Positions 11,528 to 37,235 of a stretch of 64,000 bases of DNA are shown here, piece by piece. The stretch is taken from the NCBI GenBank assembly GCA_949948985.1, contig CATLIG010000008.1:1-64000 (forward strand), given 5' to 3'. The stretch is from an uncultured Clostridia bacterium (GTDB taxonomy: Bacteria; Bacillota; Clostridia; Lachnospirales; CAG-274). Under the pieces are notes generated by a model. The model worked only from the letters and a program-made list of their open reading frames with translations, had not been told where the DNA came from and searched no databases. Every line of letters begins with the position of its first letter. Within the stretch, counting starts at the first letter, position 1. Both the position numbers and the translations under genes were made by a program.

Positions 11528-11638
11528 TTTTAATGCGTAACAAATTTAAAAAATCTGCTCCGCATTCATAAAACATCCTGAAAATAATTACGACAACCGC
11601 AAAATACTGTTTTACCACAATTATAAAGACTATTTTAA

Positions 11639-11773
11639 TTAAGCTGATAAAACTTTTCTGCCTTTTCTGCGTCTTCTAAGTAAAACCTTTCTGCCATTTA
11701 CTGTACTCATTCTTTTTCTGAAACCATGAACTTTGCTTCTTTGTCTTTTTTTAGGCTGAAATGTCATTTTCAT
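11639..11773 (-). CDS. rpmH: 50S ribosomal protein L34
   Basis: The chosen ATG at 11773 gives 44 residues, the standard bacterial L34 length, starting [18 protein letters not shown] and ending GRKVLSA. A GGAGG site lies 9 bases upstream. The open frame extends 17 codons further (to 11824) but those would cover the ribosome site. It is followed by rnpA, yidD, yidC and jag in the same direction and preceded by a strong promoter at 11970-11998. Its unusual place directly downstream of gyrA is discussed in the findings. Confidence 0.97.
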
Positions 11774-12122
11774 TTCAATAAACCTCCCTTTCGATTCTCT
11801 TCTATAGAAACGCCTGTAAAACAAAAATAATTTTTGAATAATTTAACTAATTTCAATTAAAAAAAACAAATTTTTAATTTCACAAATTTTTCAATAACCG
11901 TTATTTTAATTAATATTAGTGTTAAATAAGCGTTTCACTGTCTATATTCTATGCACAAGCACTTCTTTCATTATATTAGATAACAAAAATCAAGTCAAGT
12001 AAAACAATGAAAAAAAGGCTGTTTTTTTAAAATTGTAACATTTCTGTAAAATAAATGCCTTACATTTAATAAAATACAGAAATAAATTACTTTACACTAA
12101 CTGATATAGGCCGTTTATATAA
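11774..12122 (-). other. rpmH leader and gyrA downstream region
   Basis: The 349 bases between gyrA and rpmH hold no gene. They are very AT-rich and contain the rpmH promoter (11970-11998), which implies a leader of roughly 190 nucleotides. A run AAAAAAAGGCTGTTTTTTT at about 12011-12028 is a possible weak terminator for gyrA. Confidence 0.5.
11970..11998 (-). promoter_or_regulatory. Sigma-A-type promoter for the rpmH operon
   Basis: On the minus strand TTGACT (11993-11998) and a perfect TATAAT (11970-11975) are separated by 17 bases. This is the best housekeeping promoter in the window and points at rpmH. Confidence 0.75.
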
Positions 12123-14642
12123 TTAATTGTCTGTAGATAAATTATCTTCCAAAATATCAAGAGCCTGATTTTCTTCCTCGTCTTCTTCAGGTAAATCATC
12201 ATCAATATATTCTTCCTCAATTTTAGCGATACTCATTACCTTAACATTTTCTCCTACGTTAATAAGTTTTACCCCCTGAGTAATTCTGCTTGTAGTTGAA
12301 ATGTCCTTTATTCTTATTCTAATGACAACGCCATCGCTTGTAATCATCATAAGCTCTTCATTATCGTTTACCATACTCACGCCAACAAGATTACCCGTTT
12401 TATCGGTAATTTTGTAGCCCTTTGTACCCATACCGCCTCTTGTCTGCAATCTGAACTCATCGGCGTTTGTACATTTTCCAAAACCTTTTTCAGAAACAAT
12501 AAGCATTTTAAATCCGTCATCAACAACTTCTGACGCGATAACCTCGTCGCCCTCTTTAAGCTTTATAGCGTGAACTCCTGAAGCCATTCTTCCCATAGAC
12601 CTTACATCATTTTCATCAAATTTGATAGCCATACCAAATTTTGTAGCAACAAAAATCTGACTTTTTCCATCACTTCTTTTAACTGATATAAGCTCGTCAT
12701 CGTCTTTAAGACTAACAGCGATAAGACCCGCGTTTTTAATATTACCGAATTTTTGAATTTCGGTTTTCTTAATAATACCTTTTTTGGTAGTCATAATAAG
12801 GTAGTCGTCTTTAAACTCCCTGAGAGGGATAACCGCGCTGATTTTTTCATCTGAATCAAGATTCAGCAAATTAACAACAGGAGTTCCTTTAGCCGTTCTT
12901 CCGGCTTCGGGTATTTTATAAGTTTTTATCCTGTAGGCCTTTCCCTTGTTTGTAAATAAAAGTATATAATCGTGATTGCTGGATAAGAAAAGATTTTTAA
13001 CAAGGTCTTCATCTCTTGTCTGCATACCGATAATACCTTTTCCGCCTCTGTTCTGACTTTTGTATGTTGTAAGTGGCAGACGCTTTATATAATTAAGTCT
13101 TGTAAGAGTGACCACGCTCATTTCGTCCTCAATAAGGTCTTCCATATCTATTTCACCATAGTCAGCGACTATTTTTGTTTTTCTTTCATCACCGTATTTA
13201 TTTTTTATTACGATAAGTTCGTTTTTAATTACTTGAAACAGTCTGTTTTTATCGGCAAGAATAGCTTTCATCTCACTGATAAATTCCATAAGCTCTGCAT
13301 ATTCGTTTTCAAGTTTTTCTCTTTCAAGACCTGTAAGACTTCTAAGACGCATTTCAACAATAGCCGTAACCTGAGCGTCAGTAAAATCAAATCTTTTAAT
13401 AAGTTTTTCCTTAGCCTCATTTGTAGTCTGAGAGGACCTTATTATGCTTATAACCTCGTCAATATGGTCAAGGGCCTTTAAAAAGCCTTCGACAATATGA
13501 GCCCTTTTCAAAGCCTTGTCCAAATCAAATTTAGTTCTTCTTGTGACAACATCTTCCTGATGTTCAATATAACATTCAAGAATTTGTTTAAGATTTAAAA
13601 TTTTAGGCTCGCCTTTAACTATGGCAAGAAAATTTATGCTGTATGATTCCTGCAAAGACGAGTATTTGTAGAGCTGGTTTAATATAACAGAAGCGTTGGC
13701 GTCTTTTTTACATTCAATAACAACTCTTATACCCTCTCTGCTTGTCTCATCATTAAGACTTGAAATGCCATCTATTTTTTTATCCTTAACAAGTTCGGCG
13801 ATTTTTTCAATCATACGCGCTTTGTTTACCTGATAAGGAATTTCAGTAATGACTATTATTTCTCTGCCGTTAGGCAAAGTTTCTATCTCCGCCTCCGAGC
13901 GAATATTGATTTTGCCCCTGCCTGTCCTGTAAGCGCTTAAAATACCGCTTCTTCCAAGTATAGTAGCGCCTGTCGGAAAATCAGGACCTTTAATAATAGA
14001 CACAAGCTCGTCAATATCTGTATCTTTTCCCTCAAGTATACGGTTGTCAATAATTTTTATAATACCGTCTATTACTTCTGTAAGATTGTGAGGAGGTATA
14101 TTTGTAGCCATACCTACAGCAATACCTGACGAGCCGTTTACCAAAAGATTTGGAAACCTTGCCGGCAATACATCAGGCTCTTTTGTTTCACCATCGTAAG
14201 TATCGCTTAAATTAACAGTATTTTTTTCAATATCCGCCAGCATTTCAAGAGATATACGGCTCATTCTCGCCTCAGTATATCTCTGAGCGGCGGCAGGATA
14301 TCCGTCTATATTCCCAAAATTTCCATGACCGTCCACAAGAGGATATCTCATAGAAAAATCCTGAGCCAGACGAACAAGAGCGTCGTAAATAGCGGTATCA
14401 CCGTGAGGGTGATATTTACCCATTGTGTCCCCGACAATTCTGGCGCATTTTTTATATCCATTCGAAGGGTCAAGATTAAGCTCGTTCATAGCGTATAAAA
14501 TACGCCTGTGAACAGGTTTAAGACCATCACGCACATCAGGAAGAGCTCTTGCCACAATAACGCTCATAGCGTAATCTATATACGATGTTTTCATTTTCTC
14601 GGAAATTTCAACATCTAAAATTTTATCATATTGATTTTCCAT
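12123..14642 (-). CDS. gyrA: DNA gyrase subunit A
   Basis: An 839-residue GyrA, the cleavage-reunion subunit of the supercoiling topoisomerase. Landmarks are the quinolone-pocket region [17 protein letters not shown], with Thr where E. coli has Ser83, and the active-site Tyr in [10 protein letters not shown] near 120. In the C-terminal domain, blades start with the GyrA box QNRGGKG. The tail is acidic. The ATG at 14642 lies 9 bases after GGAGG. The frame stays open 24 codons upstream, but that part is a family B repeat fragment and precedes the ribosome site. gyrB lies immediately upstream. Confidence 0.98.
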
Positions 14643-32293: not shown

Positions 32294-33430
32294 TCATGTG
32301 TGAAATCCGTTTACAGAGGAGTTTATTTCTGAGTTGAGCCTGTCGCCTATTTCGCTCCATATCTTGTTAAAATCAGCGGCGGGATTTTGTGGTTTGATTT
32401 CAATATTGATATTTGGTGAAACGGTGACGCTGTCGGAGGATTTTCCGCTTAAGTGAAAGGATAAATCATCTTTCATTTTTTTAAAACCAAAATTTTTAAT
32501 GTCCTCGTCAGGAAAAATACCGTTGTTTATTTTGTGAATATTTTTTTCAAGATTGTTAAAACCTGATTTTTTAGGGATAAATTCGTTGAATATTTTTCCG
32601 TTGCTGTAATTATGTACGCCGGCTGTTTTAATAAAAGCTTTTTTTGTGTCTTTTATGCCGCTGCTGTAAAAGTTTTCTTTAAAGTTTTGATAATTACCTG
32701 TTTTTAATAAAGTGTTGGTCTGAGTATTTTTATCTTTAGCTTTTTCATATAATTTGGTATTGTTTAATTTTTCATAAACTGTATGAATGAGAGCAGTTTT
32801 GTAAATTATATTGTCTGTATTGTTTTTTTCAGGTAAAATTAATTTATCTTGTAAAATTTTTTCTTTAAAAAGTCCCTTTTGTAAATTTTTATTTGTGCTG
32901 AAAATTTTTGATGTGTTGTTTATATAGCTGTCATTAAAATAAGTTTTAAAAAATGAACTTTTGTCAGAATGTTCTTTGTTGTAATCTGTTCTAAAAAGAG
33001 GATAGTTTGATAAAACAGAGCTTTTTTTTAAATTGTCATAATTTATTTTTCCTTGATTTTGATTGATTTTTTTCTGAGGAAAACTTTTGTGTTTTGAAAA
33101 GTTGTTATCTTTTGTGTAATTGCCGGAAAATTTTTCGCTGGTTATTTTTTTATTAAAAATATTTTTTAATATCGGATTTTCTTTTTTGCTAAAAAAGTTT
33201 TTTTCATCTATATTGTTTTTAAAATTTTTTATTGTATTGTTTGATGTAATATTTTTTTCTTTTTCATCTGAAATATTCTTATAAAATTTTTTTATGTTTG
33301 AATTTTTAAAATTTTTTGGATTTATAAGCATATTTACGTTGGTAATTAAGTTGTTTGTTATGTTGTCATAATTTTTTATTTTGTTCATCATATCGCTGAA
33401 TTTTAATTTATTCTTTTTGTTTGTTATCAT
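32294..33430 (-). CDS. Unknown Asn/Lys/Phe-rich protein
   Basis: A 378-residue protein I do not recognise. Residues 1 to about 310 are low-complexity, rich in Asn, Lys, Phe and Ser, with no membrane segment or signal peptide. The last 50 residues look more ordered: SDSVTVSPNINIEIKPQNP then ADFNKIWSEIGDRLNSEI. That suggests one small conserved C-terminal module behind a disordered region. The ATG at 33430 follows GGGGAG; the frame extends three codons more. The composition may simply reflect strong AT bias on a weakly constrained protein. It is isolated between repeat blocks. No function is proposed. Confidence 0.65.
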   Translation of the reverse strand: MITNKKNKLKFSDMMNKIKNYDNITNNLITNVNMLINPKNFKNSNIKKFYKNISDEKEKNITSNNTIKNFKNNIDEKNFFSKKENPILKNIFNKKITSEKFSGNYTKDNNFSKHKSFPQKKINQNQGKINYDNLKKSSVLSNYPLFRTDYNKEHSDKSSFFKTYFNDSYINNTSKIFSTNKNLQKGLFKEKILQDKLILPEKNNTDNIIYKTALIHTVYEKLNNTKLYEKAKDKNTQTNTLLKTGNYQNFKENFYSSGIKDTKKAFIKTAGVHNYSNGKIFNEFIPKKSGFNNLEKNIHKINNGIFPDEDIKNFGFKKMKDDLSFHLSGKSSDSVTVSPNINIEIKPQNPAADFNKIWSEIGDRLNSEINSSVNGFHT

Positions 33431-33682
33431 ACTCCCCAAATCCTTTCATAAGGTTAAAAATTGTTTTGATGCGGTAAAAATTTTTGTTATAATCTTTAAA
33501 CAAATCTATTATAACACATAATAGTAAAAAAAGCAATATATTTGTTTCAAAAATGAAACTAAATTTCCTGACAGGTTCGTGGCTGTAATTAATGTTTTAT
33601 TGTAATAGTCTTCTTTCGAAACTTCAAACTTATTCAATGTATCTTAAAGCTTTCGGCATTTAAAAAACAAAATGCCTTTGAG

Positions 33683-33907: not shown

Positions 33908-34008
33908 TATAGCAATTCGCAAAATTTTTAGTGCAAACCAATAAAAAAATTCTTTAATATATCAAGTTTTTGATATTTGATTGTTTATTTTTTTATTGGT
34001 TCGCTATA
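33908..34008. repeat. Family D repeat overlapping the yyaC 3' end
   Basis: Ends TATAGCAATTCGC and GGTTCGCTATA, with TTTTTAGTGCAAACCAATAA inside. The right end encodes the last residues and stop codon of yyaC. Confidence 0.8.
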
Positions 34009-34563
34009 ATTAATATTTTCGCGTATACATTTCCATAGACCGTCTGTTACAATATCCGCTATGTCCATAACGATTGAAAGACGAGTGCTTTGAAGCAGGG
34101 AGATTTCTAAAAAACCGTTTAAATTTACTATACCTGTTATAAAAATGTCACCAACTTCTCCTAAATCTTTTTTTACTCCTGCGCCGGGTTTTATAGAGCC
34201 TTTTCCGACTGTTATATATCCGATATGTTCCATTTTTCCAAGAGAAGCGTCTATAGCAATAATAAGAGGATTTTTATAAAGTTTATAAATATCGCTGATA
34301 GTTTGTTCAAGATTAACGGCGTGTACGGGATTTTTTAAAGTTCCGTATATCTCAACATTCCGTATTTTTGGAAGACGGCTTAATTTGTATCCTATAAGAG
34401 GGCCTAAACTGTCTCCGGTAGCTTTATCCGTACCTATGCATAATATTATAATTTTTCTTTTTTCTTTTTTTTGAGCTGTAAATTCTGTCAGAATGTTTTT
34501 CAGAGCATATTTAAAATCAAATAATGCTGTTTTTGCTTGAGAATCAACATAAAGACTTGCCAA
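33985..34563 (-). CDS. yyaC: Spore-specific protein YyaC (Gpr-related protease family)
   Basis: A 192-residue YyaC, a relative of the germination protease found in endospore formers. Motifs are IILCIGTDKATGDSLGPLIG near 39-58, NPVHAVNLEQT, IAIDASLGK and GDIFITGIVN. Length is normal. The TTG start at 34563 lies 9 bases after GGAG. The last residues (YSEPIKK) and TAA stop come from the end of the family D repeat. It supports a sporulating host, together with gpr at 56017. Confidence 0.92.
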   Translation of the reverse strand: MASLYVDSQAKTALFDFKYALKNILTEFTAQKKEKRKIIILCIGTDKATGDSLGPLIGYKLSRLPKIRNVEIYGTLKNPVHAVNLEQTISDIYKLYKNPLIIAIDASLGKMEHIGYITVGKGSIKPGAGVKKDLGEVGDIFITGIVNLNGFLEISLLQSTRLSIVMDIADIVTDGLWKCIRENINYSEPIKK

Positions 34564-34960
34564 AATACCGCACTCCTTTTGAGTTTAGTCAAACAGCTTT
34601 ACAGCAATTCTGTAATTGCCGTAAAAATGGATAAAAAACAAGCCGATTGACTGTAAAATTTTATAGGTTTAATTTTCCCTAAAAAACAAATTTATATACT
34701 GTAGTATTATTGTTTTGTTCTAAAAAATTTCCGTAAAATTTAAGGAATTATGAGATTTTAAAAATTATTGTGAAATATAGCTGTCAACAAATGTAAAATT
34801 AGACTGACATTTTATTTAATAGTGAATATAATGAATTTTTATAAGCCAAAATGTTATTTAAAAATTTAAATTTATCGACTTATAATGCCAAAAATTAATA
34901 GGTGTGTTATGTTACTATTGTTGTGCCAAAAAAATATTATATTCAACGGGGGTGTAAAAT
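34564..34960. other. Divergent intergenic region between yyaC and the MPN/LysM gene
   Basis: 397 AT-rich bases with no gene. A short inverted motif TTACAGCAATTCTGTAATTG lies at about 34601, similar to GAATTGCTGTAA ends seen elsewhere in the window. Promoters for both flanking genes must lie here; a TATAAT at about 34880 could serve the rightward gene but its -35 is poor. Confidence 0.4.
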
Positions 34961-36328
34961 ATGCAGGAAGAAAAAAGACATAAACTGCCAACAAATATAA
35001 AGCAGGTAGGAAGCATATCCCATGGTTTAAAAATATATGTTGAGGACTATGTATATACATATATACAGCAGTATGCGTCTTTTGCTGAATGTGATGAGAA
35101 AATAGGTATACTGACAGGAAAGAAGGAAGTTTTTGAAGGCGAGGATATACTTTTTATAAACGGTATGATACAAGGAAAGTACAGCAAGACTGAAGCCGGA
35201 ATGGAAATTCTGACAGAAAAAAGCAATAATTACATAAAAGAAGAAATGGGTAAATATTTTTTGGGAGATGAAATACTTGGCTGGGTTTATATACAGCCGG
35301 GATACGGGGAATTTTTAAACAGTACCCTTATAAATTATCATGAAAATAATTTTAAAAAATATTACAGCGTATTGTTTATATATGACCCTATAGAAAAGGT
35401 AAACGGATTTTTTTGTAAAAACGAGGTTTTGGGAGGTCTTGAGGAGGTAAAGGGTTATTTTATTTACTATGACAGAAATGAGGGAATGCACGAGTATATG
35501 CTTCAGAATAAATTTGTCAAGCAAAAAGAAACGGTCGATTACTTATTTGACGATGATTTTGAAATAAATGACTCAGAGGACAAGGAAATTATTCCTGAAA
35601 CAATAAAAGATGTTACAGTTGAAAAAATAAGAAACAGTTTTTCAAAAGATTATACAGAAAAGCCTCGTGTTGAAAAGCCTCGTACAGAAAAATCCCGTAC
35701 TGTAAGACGTAAAGGAAAAATTATAACGGAACAGAAAAAACTTGTCAATTTTCTGGGTTCGTTAAGTGCGGTTTTGTTCTGTGCCTGTATTGTAATGGGA
35801 GCAAGTATAATAAAGAATGACGACCGTATAAATAATGTTGAAAAACAAGTGGCAGCAATGGATAATTCATATACATATCTTATAAAAACTATAAAGGAGG
35901 GAAATGTGCAAAGTGTTTTTGCTGCGAAAAATGAACAATTAACAAAAGAGCCGGTTTCCGCGGCGCAGACGACGGTAAAGCCTGCCGAGCAAAAAATTAC
36001 CACGGAAAAACCAATTGAAAGCACTACAGAGAAACCTACGGAAAAACCAACAGAAAAACCAACAGAAAAACTAACGGAAAAACCAACAGAAAAACCAACA
36101 GAAAAACCAACTGAGGGAACTACGGCTAAGGCTTCGGAAGCTGTGAAGAAAGAAACAGCGGCGGAAAACAAAAGACCAGCTCAATATACTGTAAAGGAGG
36201 GGGACAGCCTTTTAGGAATAAGTATAAGATTTTATGGGACAAATAAAAAAACACAGGATATTATGTCTGCTAACAAAATAGATGATCCAAATAAAATTTA
36301 TTATGGAATGGTATTAAAGCTTCCATAA
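34961..36328 (+). CDS. MPN-like (JAMM-dead) domain, membrane anchor, TEKP repeats and LysM protein
   Basis: A 455-residue protein. Residues 20-175 look like an MPN (JAB/Mov34) domain: EKIGILTGKKEV (46-57), EILGWVYIQPGYGEFLN (104-120) and VLFIYDPIEKVNGFF (137-151). The JAMM ligands H-x-H-x7-S-x2-D fall at Y110, Q112, N120 and L123, so all are replaced, while E46 is kept; it should not bind zinc. Next come a linker of Lys/Arg-Pro units (231-246), a membrane helix (263-283), a TEKP-type repeat (about 349-388) and a LysM domain at 408-455 that would bind peptidoglycan outside. The MPN part would be cytoplasmic. Partners are unknown; a sporulation role is only a guess from yyaC nearby. Confidence 0.75.
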   Translation: MQEEKRHKLPTNIKQVGSISHGLKIYVEDYVYTYIQQYASFAECDEKIGILTGKKEVFEGEDILFINGMIQGKYSKTEAGMEILTEKSNNYIKEEMGKYFLGDEILGWVYIQPGYGEFLNSTLINYHENNFKKYYSVLFIYDPIEKVNGFFCKNEVLGGLEEVKGYFIYYDRNEGMHEYMLQNKFVKQKETVDYLFDDDFEINDSEDKEIIPETIKDVTVEKIRNSFSKDYTEKPRVEKPRTEKSRTVRRKGKIITEQKKLVNFLGSLSAVLFCACIVMGASIIKNDDRINNVEKQVAAMDNSYTYLIKTIKEGNVQSVFAAKNEQLTKEPVSAAQTTVKPAEQKITTEKPIESTTEKPTEKPTEKPTEKLTEKPTEKPTEKPTEGTTAKASEAVKKETAAENKRPAQYTVKEGDSLLGISIRFYGTNKKTQDIMSANKIDDPNKIYYGMVLKLP

Positions 36329-36557: not shown

Positions 36558-37235
36558 ATGGATTTTTATAATATACCTAATCTTGAACAACTTACAGAGG
36601 AATTTACCCATGAAGTAAAAAATCCTGTAGCTCTTATACAAGCTAATATAGATTATATACAAACAAGCGATAAAAGCGGAGTTTATGAAAAAAATTATGG
36701 GGTAATGAAAAAAGAACTTCAAAAGATAATAAATGTGGTAAAAGATTTCGCAAAAGTTGTGTCGTCTGTCAATAATGCTGAAAGAGAAGTTATTTTTATT
36801 TATGACTTGATTGTGGATATGATAGATGAGTTCAGTACGCCTTTTGACGGTAAAAAAATATCATTTGATTTTACCTGCGATGATGAGGAATTAAAAATTT
36901 TTGGTGAATATTCAAAAATATGTATGGTTTTTTTCAATGTAATAAAAAATGCTATTGAGGCGATAAAAGATGAGGGTAAAATAAGTATAGCAGTAAAAAG
37001 AGAAAGTGAGGAAATAATAATAAAAATTTCTGACGATGGTTTAGGAATAGATAAATCTTTTTCGGAGATTGTATGCAATCCGTTTTTTACGACAAAAGCA
37101 AACGGCAGCGGACTTGGGCTGCCGATATGCAAAAAAATTATAGAAAGCCATAAAGGAAAGTTTTATATTTATAACAATGAAATTGAGGGATGTACTGTGG
37201 AAATCAGGCTTTTGAGTTTTTCAGACAGCAACTGA
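36558..37235 (+). CDS. Sensorless soluble histidine kinase
   Basis: A 225-residue protein with only the kinase core. The H box is FTHEVKNPVALIQANIDYI with H18 as the likely phosphoacceptor. The N box is NVIKNAIEAI, the G1 box ISDDGLGID, and the F/G2 region CNPFFTTKANGSGLGLPIC. There is no membrane segment or sensor domain before H18. No response regulator lies nearby. In sporulating Clostridia such orphan kinases often feed Spo0A, but that is inference. The ATG follows a GGGGG site. Its 3' end overlaps the convergent hydrolase gene by 32 bases. Confidence 0.88.
   Translation: MDFYNIPNLEQLTEEFTHEVKNPVALIQANIDYIQTSDKSGVYEKNYGVMKKELQKIINVVKDFAKVVSSVNNAEREVIFIYDLIVDMIDEFSTPFDGKKISFDFTCDDEELKIFGEYSKICMVFFNVIKNAIEAIKDEGKISIAVKRESEEIIIKISDDGLGIDKSFSEIVCNPFFTTKANGSGLGLPICKKIIESHKGKFYIYNNEIEGCTVEIRLLSFSDSN

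Follow-up and report, generated by a model that had tools for sequence, protein, structure and literature searches.

The window, as the whole 64,000-nt stretch of DNA analysed here is called, carries on the forward strand an ORF (34961..36328) that starts with ATG, is open throughout and encodes a protein of 455 aa. An N-terminal MPN (JAMM-fold) domain (about residues 13-164; 34997..35452, +) is directly followed by a conserved element, GYFIYYDRNEGMHEYMLQ (residues 165-182; 35453..35506, +), a hydrophobic membrane helix (about residues 263-284; 35747..35812, +), a TEKP-repeat spacer (about residues 352-388; 36014..36124, +) and a C-terminal LysM domain (residues 409-455; 36185..36325, +). The LysM domain matches PF01476 with 38.2 bits against a cut-off of 20.9 (E = 1.3e-9) and is present in 68 of 71 members from the order. 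"The order" here means the one, probably Lachnospirales, to which the window's genome is assigned among a collection of 84,980 species genomes. The spacer corresponds to the Pfam PT disordered repeat, and Thr/Glu-rich spacers take the place of the TEKP repeat in homologues. An antisense ORF at 35650-36171 arises mechanically from the TEKP repeat and was set aside. From the charge bias flanking the membrane helix, the N terminus is predicted to be inside in 25 of 26 members of the window's family, so that the MPN domain should lie in the cytosol and the LysM domain outside.

Divergently upstream lies yyaC (33985..34563, -), a GPR-like sporulation gene (DUF1256, E = 2.6e-56). Downstream, a gene at 36558..37235 (+) encodes, according to its domain matches, a soluble HisKA-HATPase kinase without a sensor domain, which is a candidate partner. 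Both neighbours are as the original prediction had named them, and its layout of MPN domain, one membrane helix, spacer and LysM is borne out by profile searches, structure model and fold comparison. Between prs and yyaC the window contains a Lys/Asn-rich ORF of 381 aa (32297-33439, -) with no Pfam match.

MPN fold and the former JAMM site

Pfam and NCBIfam detect no MPN domain in the window protein. Searched with the single sequence, phmmer matches Rpn11 only weakly (E about 0.2), and a profile of 20 homologues improves this to 0.0014; with 65 sequences in the profile, the E-value falls to 2.4e-11 against the Caldiarchaeum protein and to about 4e-8 against its yeast counterpart. The full-length AlphaFold model built from 20 sequences is poor outside the domains (mean pLDDT 61.6), and for this reason a deeper alignment of the domain was used. 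The resulting model from 65 sequences has a mean pLDDT of 93.1 and a pTM of 0.89, and matches 6fju_B with Z 18.5 and 2.4 A over 155 residues. Foldseek and VIA-align group the domain with the MPN domains of Rpn11, BRCC36 and CSN, the best Z of 18.5 being common to BRCC36 of BRISC and Caldiarchaeum Rpn11. By fold, the domain is a member of the MPN/JAMM superfamily.

The former JAMM motif (35288..35329, +) reads Y110, Q112, N120 and L123 for H, H, S and D in an alignment of about 80 homologues, and Glu46 (35096..35098, +) is the sole JAMM catalytic position kept. The motif of active MPN+ metalloproteases, E...HxHx7Sx2D, is absent from the window protein. Our scan for close relatives in the 84,980 species genomes yielded 22 loci, 21 of which reach the gene start; all 21 have the MPN domain, membrane helix, Thr-rich spacer and LysM, and E46, Y110 and Q112 are invariant among them. 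Since layout and these three residues are conserved across homologues, the observation stands well above chance. With an MPN fold, no JAMM ligands and Y110 and Q112 invariant in the close homologues, the domain resembles an MPN-minus pseudoenzyme in fold and sequence. The original prediction had assigned the MPN fold from the pattern of residues, which proves right, as profile, model and fold matches agree, and alignment to Rpn11-type MPN proteins shows its residue readings to be exact. The two refuting outcomes it had named did not arise: the structure model adopts an MPN fold, and the homologues have the same N-terminal MPN domain, the dead motif being conserved among the close ones.

Compared with JAMM deubiquitinases of the Rpn11 type (Caldiarchaeum 6fju/6fnn, yeast), the window protein has the same fold over ~155 residues (Z 18.5) and the same motif spacing, but reads GWxYxQPGYGxxL where Rpn11 has GWYHSHPGFGCWL, all metal ligands and the catalytic Ser being replaced. 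It is furthermore fused to a membrane helix and LysM, and has an extra C-terminal strand-helix motif. MPN-minus pseudoenzymes such as Rpn8, CSN6 and relatives likewise combine the MPN fold with lost JAMM residues and are kept for protein contacts; they are soluble subunits of eukaryotic complexes, paired with an active MPN protein, whereas the window protein is bacterial and predicted to be wall-anchored.

The extra motif, GYxIYYxKNxxMxxY, is the conserved element right after the MPN core. It occurs in 69 of 71 members from the order and in none of 10 members from outside it, is modelled with high confidence as a strand plus a helix, and is a candidate docking site.

Among the about 80 sequences compared, the site can be written as a string of positions 46, 110, 112, 120 and 123. 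EHHSD is confined to members of ubiquitin-like operons, and EHCSD is found in family f25. Families f91, f106, f87 and f4 have EHQSD, EHQTD, EHQSE/EHQTE and EHQMD, several families EHQNY and EQQNY, family f104 EYQTL, and the window's family EYQ(N/S/K)(L/H/I/V). Family f2 has almost no motif residues left, and two of its members have deletions in the core. The strings form a decay series from EHHSD over EHQSD/EHQTD, EHQNY/EQQNY and EYQNL to nothing recognisable. In a tree calculated without the site columns, all sampled members from the order form a single branch with a support of 99, separate from the relatives whose site is intact. Taking the intact site as the starting state, a polarity which we infer, the second zinc His was probably lost first, to Gln, and the remaining site drifted later.

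Relatives with an intact site in ubiquitin-like operons

A profile search recovers the protein in 276 of 392 genomes of the order. In a class-wide sample it is present in 17 of 391 genomes: nine from the window's order, six from outside it with an intact site, and two with the HxC site of family f25. Relatives that combine the MPN-membrane(-LysM) layout with an intact H-x-H...S..D site all came from outside the order. Their six genomes are represented by loci L052-L056 and by a short contig behind L029/L043, and a Prok-RING_1 gene adjoins the JAB gene in all six. The five loci with long flanks (L052-L056) also have a YukD-type ubiquitin-like protein, a ThiF-family E1 and an E2-type protein nearby. 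Prokaryotic ubiquitin-like systems of this YukD-E1-E2-RING kind have been surveyed (PMC1779556).

The JAB proteins of these Clostridial operons match the window family with E = 9e-24 in profile-profile comparison and share its order of MPN domain, membrane helix and LysM in 5 of 8 sampled intact members. They differ from it in their intact E/HxH/S/D site and their place in a conjugation operon, both of which the window protein lacks, and, unlike the window family, they have no GYxIYYxKNxxMxxY and do not lie beside yyaC. In several operons there are two JAB-membrane proteins, of which a single one has LysM: at L052, L054 and L055 two such genes flank the RING gene, LysM is found only in the downstream one, and the upstream protein may form a pair with it. 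At L053, the YukD-E1-RING-JAB operon includes an E2 (UQ_con) gene with a C-terminal FHA fusion (11538-13277, -), beside a predicted trypsin-like protein in a Pfam-checked cluster. The f25 proteins (L057:704-1867 and L058:8990-10156) are MPN-membrane-LysM proteins with HTCP, the second His being replaced by Cys; their genes lie outside any ubiquitin-like operon, that of L057 beside an apparent ethanolamine-utilisation cluster. Our literature search did not find LysM, JAB domain and ubiquitin combined in this sense.

The class-wide sample includes 18 genomes from the window's order, and none of these has Prok-RING_1. The window's genome, whose assembly is 94.8% complete, contains Prok-RING_1 only below the cut-off, no YukD match, E1-like matches that are distant (only 29-33% identical), and no match to JAB PF01398, a model that also misses the window protein. 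No Ubl, E1, E2 or RING gene neighbours the window locus, which thus does not belong to a YukD-E1-E2-RING operon. The ubiquitin-like system appears to be gone from the order.

Sporulation, gene neighbourhood and promoter

The sporulation gene spoIVA (PF09547) is present in 273 of the same 392 genomes of the order. It co-occurs with the pseudo-JAMM gene in 258, while 18 genomes have only the pseudo-JAMM gene, 15 only spoIVA and 101 neither (phi 0.80, Fisher p 1.5e-57, for a single marker and with shared ancestry uncorrected). Incomplete assemblies account for many of the discordant genomes, and some members may be too divergent to pass the profile cut-off. Judged by this one marker, uncorrected for phylogeny, the gene is found with the sporulation set and rarely without it.

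Synteny was counted over the retrieved loci, which are not a random draw. yyaC is one of the widely conserved sporulation genes (PMC3533761). In the window's family, 21 of the 22 loci that could be tested have it next to the pseudo-JAMM gene; in the order's other families the count is 24 of 45, and among operon-type and f25 relatives it is zero. Within the family the kinase gene is the next one downstream in 24 of 25 cases, elsewhere in the order in 10 of 45. As a universal partner the kinase was rejected, being absent beside the gene in most other families, and no candidate partner accompanies the gene at all loci compared. DUF5711 and CvpA take the place of the kinase in 20 of the 45 loci outside the family. 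A recurrent group yyaC / pseudo-JAMM / DUF5711 / CvpA is seen at L047-L051, L114, L115, L119-L121 and L124-L133, where DUF5711 and, in nearly all, CvpA come after the pseudo-JAMM gene, often directly. At L119 and L121 (family f87) a gene resembling glycogen synthase is directly downstream of it. The region upstream at L123 contains VSIHAPARGAT repeats in its translations, suggesting a CRISPR array.

The predicted promoter of the window gene (34875..34918, +; TCGACTTATA / ATGCCA / 22 nt / TACTAT) has a long spacer as in spoIIG and two half boxes spaced by 10 bp. TTKRCA and TANNAT with a 21-nt spacer are found upstream of 64% of window-family genes versus 1% of controls. A normal sigma-A promoter with a 17-nt spacer was rejected, as the 17-nt spacing gives no peak and the sole peak is at 21. 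A matrix trained on 12 family promoters scores 8 or more in 36% of genes of other families, a value that no control promoter (of 178) and no shuffled sequence (of 450) attains. With the spacer fixed at 21 nt the matrix misses the window promoter, because its spacer measures 22 nt; once the spacer was varied, the window copy outscored all 78 controls, and none of 300 shuffles reached its score. Spacers of 21-22 nt with 0A boxes at -35 mark the Spo0A-activated promoters of spoIIE and spoIIG. spoIIGA of the same family has the same 21-nt spacing peak, its matrix score as a control being modest and only modestly above background (p = 0.006). The half boxes form a clear tandem pair and look like the 0A core TGTCGAA (PMC3485338) read in reverse complement, with an imperfect match to TTCGACA. 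Box and spacing together suggest that the gene is probably controlled by Spo0A; other regulators that bind tandem repeats are possible.

A putative wall-bound adaptor of sporulation

That the MPN resemblance is due to chance, or the ORF a decaying pseudogene, has next to no probability: the domain escapes Pfam and NCBIfam, but the gene is kept in hundreds of genomes with no stops inside the match, and chance resemblance is rejected by the strong profile and fold matches together with the high-confidence model. The domain could still act as an enzyme, binding metal through other residues, or still bind a ubiquitin-like protein. For this speak Glu46, invariant in the close family, Gln112, invariant there and in most other families, and those members in which the second His alone is replaced, E, H, S/T and D being retained. 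With Y110, N120 and L123, however, the window protein no longer has a zinc site that can be recognised, f2 members retain almost no motif residues and in two cases have lost parts of the core, and the window's genome, at 94.8% completeness, has no YukD match; retained activity or ubiquitin-like binding is thus very unlikely.

The best explanation, given the dead but conserved MPN domain, the fixed new motif, the membrane anchor, the wall-binding domain and probable expression at the start of sporulation, is in our judgement a wall-anchored adaptor acting at the sporulation stage and derived from an isopeptidase of a bacterial ubiquitin-like system, a reading that is somewhat more likely than not. 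As originally proposed, a link between the inside of the cell and peptidoglycan may reasonably be inferred. The ancestor would have resembled the MPN-membrane-LysM isopeptidase of the YukD, E1, E2, RING operons. In the window's order the conjugation system would have been lost, and the active site would have lost its second zinc His to Gln and decayed further, while the new C-terminal strand-helix GYxIYYxKNxxMxxY became nearly invariant. Spo0A, acting on a sigma-A promoter with a long spacer (21-22 nt), would switch the gene on as sporulation starts. With the N-terminal domain in the cytosol and LysM on the peptidoglycan outside, the conserved face would hold a cytosolic partner at a wall-bound site; in the window family, the soluble histidine kinase encoded downstream would be the first candidate for this partner.

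Two special cases of such an adaptor are conceivable. The LysM-membrane-MPN protein might be the sensing half of the neighbouring soluble kinase, with LysM reading the state of the peptidoglycan and the signal passing over the pseudo-JAMM domain and the kinase to Spo0A; this would amount to positive feedback, since the operon itself would be under Spo0A. Both the H-box-like start of the kinase, FTHEVKNP, and its HATPase domain are intact while a sensor is lacking, and in the 24 of 25 family loci where it follows directly the gaps are often of few bases. In the window, however, the gap is 229 nt, and most other families have no adjoining kinase, yet the gene persists there together with sporulation, which leaves a split sensor possible but doubtful. 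The protein might also sit in the membrane surrounding the forespore, with its LysM domain on the cortex or the germ-cell wall and its MPN domain turned towards the cytoplasm of mother cell or forespore, where it would hold a coat or engulfment protein. LysM occurs in spore coat proteins such as SafA, whose profile TIGR02899 matches the window protein weakly, and the close tie to sporulators and to yyaC points the same way. SafA and SipL share LysM and the link to sporulation with the window protein, but in the latter a membrane helix precedes LysM, for which an outside position is predicted, and to our knowledge SafA and SipL have no MPN domain. Against a tether in the spore envelope stands the promoter pattern, which suggests early expression driven by Spo0A and not by a late compartment-specific factor, and the tether remains a tentative idea.

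For the adaptor in general, the gene being kept almost only in the spore-making species of the order, a tag-removing enzyme seems therefore to have turned into a protein of spore formation. The wider proposal is that in a whole order of gut spore-formers a wall-anchored deconjugating enzyme became a dead, Spo0A-controlled adaptor from peptidoglycan to a cytosolic sporulation partner, with intermediates of the decay still living; to this we would give an even chance. Inactive MPN proteins are scaffolds in eukaryotic complexes such as the proteasome lid and the signalosome, and a bacterial MPN pseudoenzyme fixed to the wall and tied to sporulation would, if true, be a separate case of the same repurposing, for which intact ancestor-like systems and intermediate stages would be available for study. 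GYxIYYxKNxxMxxY is a defined motif that can serve as bait for finding the partner. The gene itself, which most sporulating genomes of a large order carry and which neither Pfam nor NCBIfam reveals, is an unannotated sporulation candidate.
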